From Nevskiales bacterium (GTDB taxonomy: Bacteria; Pseudomonadota; Gammaproteobacteria; Nevskiales; DATLYR01): a stretch of 37,061 nucleotides of DNA. Position numbers and translations under genes: made by a program. The notes under the pieces were generated by a model that worked only from the letters and a program-made list of their open reading frames with translations, made no database searches and was not told where the DNA came from. This document shows positions 29,992-30,699 of this stretch, one piece after another; the stretch's first letter is position 1, and the number at the start of each line of letters is the position of its first letter. The DNA lies in the NCBI GenBank assembly GCA_035574475.1, contig DATLYR010000084.1, forward strand, positions 1 through 37,061, written 5' to 3'.

Positions 29992-30432
29992 TCAGCGCGT
30001 GCTGAGCCAGAAGCTCACCGGGCCGTCATTGATCAGGCTCACCTGCATGTCCGCGCCGAAGCGTCCGCTCGCCACCGGGGCATGGCGGGCGCGGGCCCGT
30101 TCCAGCAGCCCCAGGAACAGGGCTTCGGCCTGTGCCGGCGGTGCCGCGGGCGTGAAGCTGGGCCGGTTACCCTTGCGGGTGTCGGCGGCGAGCGTGAACT
30201 GCGGCACCAGCAGCAGGCCGCCGCCGACCTCGCGCAGGCTCAGGTTCATGCGCCCCGCCGCGTCCGGGAACACGCGGTAGTCGAGCAGGCGCTCGAGCAG
30301 CCGCTCGGCATCCGCCTCACCGTCCTCGTGAACCACCCCGATCAATACCAGCAGCCCTCGGCCGATGGCGCCCACGGTCACGCCATTGACATCCACCCGC
30401 GCCTGGCTGACACGCTGCAGAAATCCGATCAC
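29992..30432 (-). CDS. dtd: D-aminoacyl-tRNA deacylase
   Basis: 146 residues. It hydrolyses D-amino acids from mischarged tRNA. The start (MIGFLQRVSQARVDV) and the C-terminal NDGPVSFWL with the Gly-cisPro element are typical. The usual S-Q-F-T-L motif reads P-Q-F-T-L here (LVPQFTLAADTRKGNRPSF), an exchange of a residue that is Ser in most relatives I recall. It is a single gene 105 nt upstream of hisB. The palindrome at 30450-30467 sits 18 nt before its ATG. Confidence 0.94.
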   Translation of the reverse strand: MIGFLQRVSQARVDVNGVTVGAIGRGLLVLIGVVHEDGEADAERLLERLLDYRVFPDAAGRMNLSLREVGGGLLLVPQFTLAADTRKGNRPSFTPAAPPAQAEALFLGLLERARARHAPVASGRFGADMQVSLINDGPVSFWLSTR

Positions 30433-30449: not shown

Positions 30450-30467
30450 TGTAGGGCCAAACCTACA
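30450..30467. promoter_or_regulatory. GacA/UvrY-like binding site upstream of the Csr-type sRNA
   Basis: A perfect 18-bp interrupted palindrome, TGTAGGGCCAAACCTACA: TGTAGG-N6-CCTACA. The GacA upstream activating sequence in pseudomonads is TGTAAG-N6-CTTACA. The layout and spacing match, with one symmetric substitution in each half. It lies about 65 bp upstream of the likely start of the sRNA. It could instead serve dtd, which starts 18 nt away on the other strand. Confidence 0.55.
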
Positions 30468-30511
30468 CCAAGTGCAGCGCTTGGCCGACTGCCTGCGCAC
30501 AGGCGTCCTGA

Positions 30512-30517
30512 CATACT
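30512..30517 (+). promoter_or_regulatory. Candidate -10 element of the sRNA
   Basis: CATACT, four of six matches to the sigma-70 -10 box, upstream of the GGA-rich region. No good -35 is visible, which would suit an activator-dependent promoter. Start would be near 30524. Confidence 0.3.
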
Positions 30518-30523
30518 GCCGCT

Positions 30524-30696
30524 CGCACGCGGTCAGAGACAAGGAAACAGGAAGCGTTTTGAAGACCGCGGCACAGGGAAGACCGGACGTTCAGGAAGAA
30601 CAGGATGATCGCCGCTTCAGGGATGAAGCACTGAACACCCCAATCGCCGGCATCCGCCCGGCCCCCTTGGCCCGGCCTCCCCAGCCGGGTTTTTTG
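30524..30696 (+). ncRNA. Csr/Rsm-family regulatory RNA (CsrB/RsmZ-like)
   Basis: The region holds seven GGA triplets in 81 nt (30543, 30550, 30577, 30585, 30594, 30603, 30621), several in the CsrA consensus form CAGGAAG, CAGGATG or CAGGGATG. At least two lie in loops of perfect hairpins: GTTC-AGGAA-GAAC (30589-30601) and GCTTCA-GGGA-TGAAGC (30614-30629). Both are close to loops I recall in E. coli CsrB. An intrinsic terminator ends the transcript at about 30696. These RNAs sequester CsrA/RsmA and release its mRNA targets. The location in a divergent intergenic region, with a GacA-like box upstream, fits the family. The 5' end is estimated, and CsrA itself is not in the window. Confidence 0.75.
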
Positions 30697-30699
30697 TTT
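30671..30699 (+). terminator. Intrinsic terminator of the Csr-type sRNA
   Basis: Stem CCCGGC (30671-30676) and GCCGGG (30684-30689) with a 7-nt loop, followed by TTTTTTGTTT. It points on the plus strand, yet no protein gene on that strand ends within the previous 10 kb of his/tat/dtd sequence. It therefore needs an RNA gene to terminate. Confidence 0.85.

Follow-up and report, generated by a model that had tools for sequence, protein, structure and literature searches.

What occupies the 322-bp gap that separates dtd (29992-30432, minus strand; Pfam PF02580 and NCBIfam TIGR00256) from the divergently oriented lpxL-like acyltransferase gene (from 30755, plus strand; Pfam PF03279) in the genome of this Nevskiales bacterium? 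A sequence-only reading of the 37,061-nt stretch of DNA analyzed here (hereafter, the window) had described a divergent gap of about 320 bp without a convincing open reading frame and had proposed that the gap encodes a CsrA-sponging RNA. The evidence presented below makes it very likely that the gap RNA is an unannotated stand-alone sRNA, activated by GacA and sequestering CsrA, which would work in the manner of RsmY, RsmZ, and CsrB. Because many related bacteria have RNAs of like design at the corresponding position, this appears to be a real regulator, albeit one of a familiar type that current RNA libraries overlook.

The predicted sRNA comprises about 172 nt on the plus strand (30524-30695) and carries seven GGA motifs (30543-30623), which begin at 30543, 30550, 30577, 30585, 30594, 30603, and 30621, with five of the seven embedded in CAGG(G)A[A/T]G. 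Both the seven triplets in 81 nt and the prevalence of the CAGGA-type context had been noticed from the sequence, and this is the only 81-nt stretch with seven GGA in the entire window, on either strand. In its longer form, CAGG(G)A[ACT]G, the motif occurs 5 times against 0.13 expected (p<0.0005; none of 2000 dinucleotide shuffles reaches 5). When the window RNA alone is compared with dinucleotide shuffles, neither the GGA triplets (7 vs 4.9, p=0.13) nor the GGA-loop hairpins (2 vs 0.7, p=0.15) are significantly in excess, and the full-length RNA folds no better than usual (z -0.57), so that the raw GGA count and the minimum-energy fold were dropped as sole evidence. The two perfect hairpins with GGA in the loop that had been read from the sequence are indeed there: GUUC-AGGAA-GAAC (30589-30601, plus strand) forms locally, outside the minimum-energy fold of the whole RNA, and GCUUCA-GGGA-UGAAGC (30614-30629, plus strand) is the only one of the two within that fold. 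Multiple GGA or ANGGA motifs, several of them in loops, characterize the sponge-RNA class, and here we find seven GGA, five CAGG(G)ANG, and two loop hairpins. The class is also characterized by an intrinsic terminator and by the lack of coding capacity, and the dtd-gap RNA has its own terminator and is non-coding. The terminator search, with 0.2 hits expected, found one, GGCCCGGC-CTCCCCA-GCCGGGTTTTTTG (30669-30697, plus strand), composed of a stem-loop at 30669-30691 and a T-tail, on the same strand as the GGA array, as the sequence-only reading had it.

The strongest evidence for a sponge RNA comes from the GacA-type promoter, which was absent from that reading. The 18-bp palindrome TGTAGG-GCCAAA-CCTACA (30450-30467, plus strand), an upstream activating sequence of the GacA/UvrY type, is centered at about -65 from the predicted start; it is followed, at a fixed distance of 35 nt from the palindrome start, by the box CCGACT (30485-30490, plus strand; about -39 to -34) and then by CATACT (30512-30517, plus strand), the probable -10 box, at an offset of +62/+63 that is the same in relatives. 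The transcription start is predicted near 30524 because of the position of this CATACT box. No consensus -35 box was found in the gap promoter, which is typical of promoters that depend on an activator. In its left half, TGTAGG, the palindrome is one base off the classical TGTAAG; TGTAAGN6CTTACA is the GacA box of csr sRNA promoters, csrA1 being preceded by a nearly identical TGTAGG variant (PMC8523701), the UvrY site likewise being 18 nt long and sRNA antagonists being present throughout the gamma-proteobacteria (PMC4682653). In the ungapped alignment of 13 promoters (that of the window and 12 others), G8, C15, and TACA of the box are invariant, and so is GACT of CCGACT; a GacA/UvrY/SirA box ahead of an intergenic promoter is a further hallmark of the class, and here its register is fixed among relatives. 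Across the 2.86 Mb of the genome, the pattern TGTARG-N6-CYTACA has 4 sites and its reversed control has none; one of the four, the window copy, precedes a GGA cluster with a terminator, and no GGA RNA with a terminator lies behind the other three. These remaining TGTAGG-N6-CCTACA palindromes (G000:C30:5141-5158, C46:20996-21013, and C199:9743-9760; L036, L037, and L039) are located at or near the starts of an alpha/beta-hydrolase-like gene, a 172-aa frame, and a lipase-like gene, which may be direct targets of GacA.

The genome encodes the proteins that such an RNA would connect. CsrA is present (G000:C205; 107 bits vs a cut-off of 73), and so is a GacA/UvrY ortholog (G000:C23; 285.7 vs the curated cut-off of 280); a BarA/GacS-like hybrid kinase (G000:C83, a 1106-aa frame) matches the BarA model with E 6.7e-88 and a score below the model cut-off. 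In the proposed mechanism, phosphorylated GacA would bind the palindrome at 30450-30467 and, together with the conserved CCGACT box, drive an activator-dependent promoter with CATACT as the -10 element; transcription would stop at the terminator ahead of the lpxL-like gene; the CAGGA and CAGGGA sites, some of them in hairpin loops, would bind CsrA dimers; and the sRNA would draw these dimers off mRNAs, relieving CsrA control. We infer the transcription of the gap RNA, the binding of GacA and CsrA, and the existence of a downstream regulon.

The promoter and its location are conserved. The order-wide set consists of 85 genomes, namely, that of the window (G000) and 84 relatives, none of which belongs to its own family. 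A composite search of these genomes (GacA box, CCGACT, and ATACT, up to 3 mismatches, with a control) identified the promoter at 0-1 mismatch in G000, G002, G026, G042, and G065 only, in each case beside dtd, with no control matches and two 3-mismatch matches elsewhere (G006 and G021). The dtd/lpxL-like gap of G002, from another family, contains TGTAGG-AAAATT-CTTACA, CCGACT at +35, ATACT at +63, seven GGA, and a terminator; that of G065 combines a promoter of the G002 type and a terminator with ten GGA. A promoter-only, sequence-only model (R1), built from the 13 aligned promoters, so that the pattern-match genomes it recovered are its own training members, reached two loci of the order outside the training set: in G042, another tandem copy, the third (E 6e-5), and in G012, the dtd gap (E 0.002). 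One further match, in G006, lies away from dtd. On visual inspection, the dtd gaps of G004, G008, G016 (same family as G012), G003, and G021 also contain boxes resembling the upstream activating sequence, GGA motifs, and terminators, and that of G007 contains a GGA cluster. Judged from these sequences, a dtd-linked RNA locus appears to be present in each of the six families that make up the order, in some of their members, the by-eye group being weaker than the pattern matches. The RNA is absent where dtd directly abuts the lpxL-like gene (G047, G051, and G060) and where another gene adjoins dtd (G009, G013, G027, and G037, all from one genus). The search of relatives with the DNA of the whole gap returned a single match, inside metH of G026 and away from dtd; this similarity (83% over 46 nt, between 30623-30665 of the window and the 3' part of metH) is probably due to chance and was rejected as a homologous RNA.

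The same kind of locus recurs outside the order. The class-wide composite search, which covered 369 genomes, matched, besides the window, G126, G266, G123, and G369, as well as G416, where the match is unconvincing. The gene order in G369 is dtd, the RNA, and a convergent malic enzyme gene; in G123, the RNA is accompanied by a gene for a pip-like hydrolase and by dtd; G126 and G266 each contain two tandem RNAs, the G266 pair lying near typA. The non-training R1 matches in other families include G117, G210, G275, G418, and G208, behind each of which lie 5-10 GGA and a T-run, a combination that covers 0.8% of flanking-sequence positions as the background rate, and G428, with many GGA behind the promoter; the matches in G372, G260, and G118 are unconvincing. 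Translated frames place the RNA of G117 between typA and the pair formed by a pip-like gene and dtd, that of G208 between dtd and typA, and that of G275 next to pip and dtd. In G221, the strand opposite the R1 match carries, beside dtd, a box and CCGACT together with a long run of GGA motifs.

This variety of surroundings bears on the reading of the gap as a regulated leader, in which transcription would start upstream and the terminator would act as an attenuator gating expression of the acyltransferase. The RNA does lie on the same strand as the lpxL-like gene, and its terminator lies about 60 nt before the gene start, but the gene behind the terminator changes, from lpxL-like (G002 and G065) to a convergent malic enzyme gene (G369), other genes (G123), and the typA neighborhood (G266/G126), and in G026 and G042, further complete promoter-RNA-terminator units intervene between the first terminator and lpxL. 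The attenuator scenario is weakened by this variation of the downstream gene and by the whole tandem units that separate terminator from lpxL, and we regard it as very improbable. Two or three tandem promoter-RNA-terminator units are observed in L016:1969-2600 (G042), L015 (G026), L072/L073 (G266/G126), and L096 and L101 (G004 and G012); in the later copies, the left half of the GacA box is often decayed, with CCTACA and CCGACT intact.

At the level of the RNAs themselves, BLASTN detects no alignable homology between them beyond short motifs, such as CAGGGATG, which the window RNA has in common with the RNAs of five relatives. What these RNAs share is their design. In a pooled shuffle test of 15 RNAs with trimmed terminators, which are not fully independent because some are tandem copies from one genome, GGA-loop hairpins number 42 vs 11.4 expected (sd 3.2), ANGGA motifs 56 vs 15.5, and CAGG(G)A[ACT]G motifs 26 vs 1.4. 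Conservation of GGA hairpins in relatives was among the checks that the sequence-only reading had set for itself, and the outcome speaks in favor of its claim. In the first hairpin of the G266/G126 RNAs, two compensatory changes preserve the stem, and GGA stays in the loop. It is this array of GGA/ANGGA in loops that is kept across lineages, which argues against a GacA-regulated sRNA acting mainly by base pairing, for example, through a C/U-rich module near the 3' end directed against ribosome-binding sites. Several relatives do have AATCACCTCC-like or TCCTCCC stretches right before the terminator, and L052 shows a weak suhB/mmgR-like score, below gathering, but the window RNA has no AATCACCTCC stretch, and for this RNA we give the base-pairing scenario very little credence. 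The AATCACCTCC stretch, which the window RNA lacks, is similar to the anti-Shine-Dalgarno 3' end of 16S rRNA, and in L072, L073, L074, L075, L120, and L122, TCAATCACC(TCC) and then a small GCC..GGC hairpin are found immediately before the terminator. Least credible of all is a G/A-rich intergenic sequence arisen by chance or a portion of some small gene that escaped notice: the GGA count alone is inside the shuffle range, and one open frame crosses the GGA region of the gap, but the homologous locus repeatedly combines promoter, GGA array, and terminator, no reading frame shows conserved protein-coding similarity between the gap RNA and the RNAs of relatives, and the open frame continues through the terminator, on which grounds the small gene was rejected.

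The class assignment and the family assignment in the sequence-only reading fared differently. A sponge of the CsrA/RsmA class is upheld by the GacA-box promoter in its rigid register, by a promoter, GGA array, and terminator that persist beside dtd in other families even as the RNA sequence diverges, and by the presence of csrA and gacA in the genome. Membership in a named family (Rfam CsrB, CsrC, RsmX, RsmY, or RsmZ) did not hold: none of these covariance models matches, be it in the window at the gathering score, in the gap at E up to 10, or in the relatives. Weak Rfam matches to anti-hemB, GadY, and suhB were rejected as mostly terminator-driven.

Among the known systems, the GacA-controlled RsmX, RsmY, and RsmZ of Pseudomonas are likewise small intergenic RNAs with an 18-bp GacA-type palindrome, an intrinsic terminator, and 6-10 GGA motifs (PMC7911923), partly in loops. 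The window RNA differs from them in having no Rfam match, in its dtd-linked locus, and in the conserved CCGACT of the promoter linker. In the rsm genes of Pseudomonas, this linker region is reportedly poorly conserved (Humair et al., 2010). With the UvrY-controlled CsrB and CsrC of enterobacteria, the window RNA shares CAGGAUG-type repeats and a UvrY/GacA-type box, whereas it is shorter, resides at another locus, matches no covariance model, and has fewer motifs, 7, as compared to about 18 in CsrB. CsrB and CsrC of Marinomonas mediterranea present a parallel case of a gammaproteobacterium outside the classical models, in which the RNAs were found by GacA box and ANGGA and a TGTAGG-type variant of the box occurs as well, before csrA1; the neighboring genes, as far as named, differ (PMC8523701). 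Sponge RNAs are, then, a kind already known; no description of a dtd-linked Rsm RNA or of a rigid CCGACT promoter element was found in the open-licence literature searched, although absence there does not prove novelty.

RNAs that sponge CsrA set the activity of a global regulator, and their fast divergence defeats Rfam models; outside model species, they are missed. The combination of promoter and synteny (GacA box, CCGACT, and ATACT beside dtd) detects sponge RNAs without any RNA alignment and makes the output of the Gac/Csr system testable in many uncharacterized bacteria. The rigid CCGACT element, in turn, offers a handle on the incompletely known promoter needs of csr and rsm genes; csrB and csrC of E. 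coli failed to be transcribed when a defined in vitro system was used (PMC4682653). It is conceivable, even if we would put it at somewhat short of an even chance, that the typA/pip/dtd neighborhood is an ancestral home of Csr/Rsm sponge RNAs in much of the gammaproteobacteria, where these RNAs were repeatedly duplicated in tandem and lost, and, jointly, that these promoters share an undescribed fixed CCGACT that is read together with GacA by a second factor or through an unusual RNA polymerase contact.

Yet another variation on the dtd locus is seen in G006, G024, and G058 (L024, L029, and L030), where the dtd gaps contain a decayed box followed by GGTTTTTCCTCCTCCC and a terminator instead of a GGA RNA, with the ATACT box also found in two of these three gaps. 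These gaps may encode an sRNA that acts by base pairing and arose from the same dtd locus.
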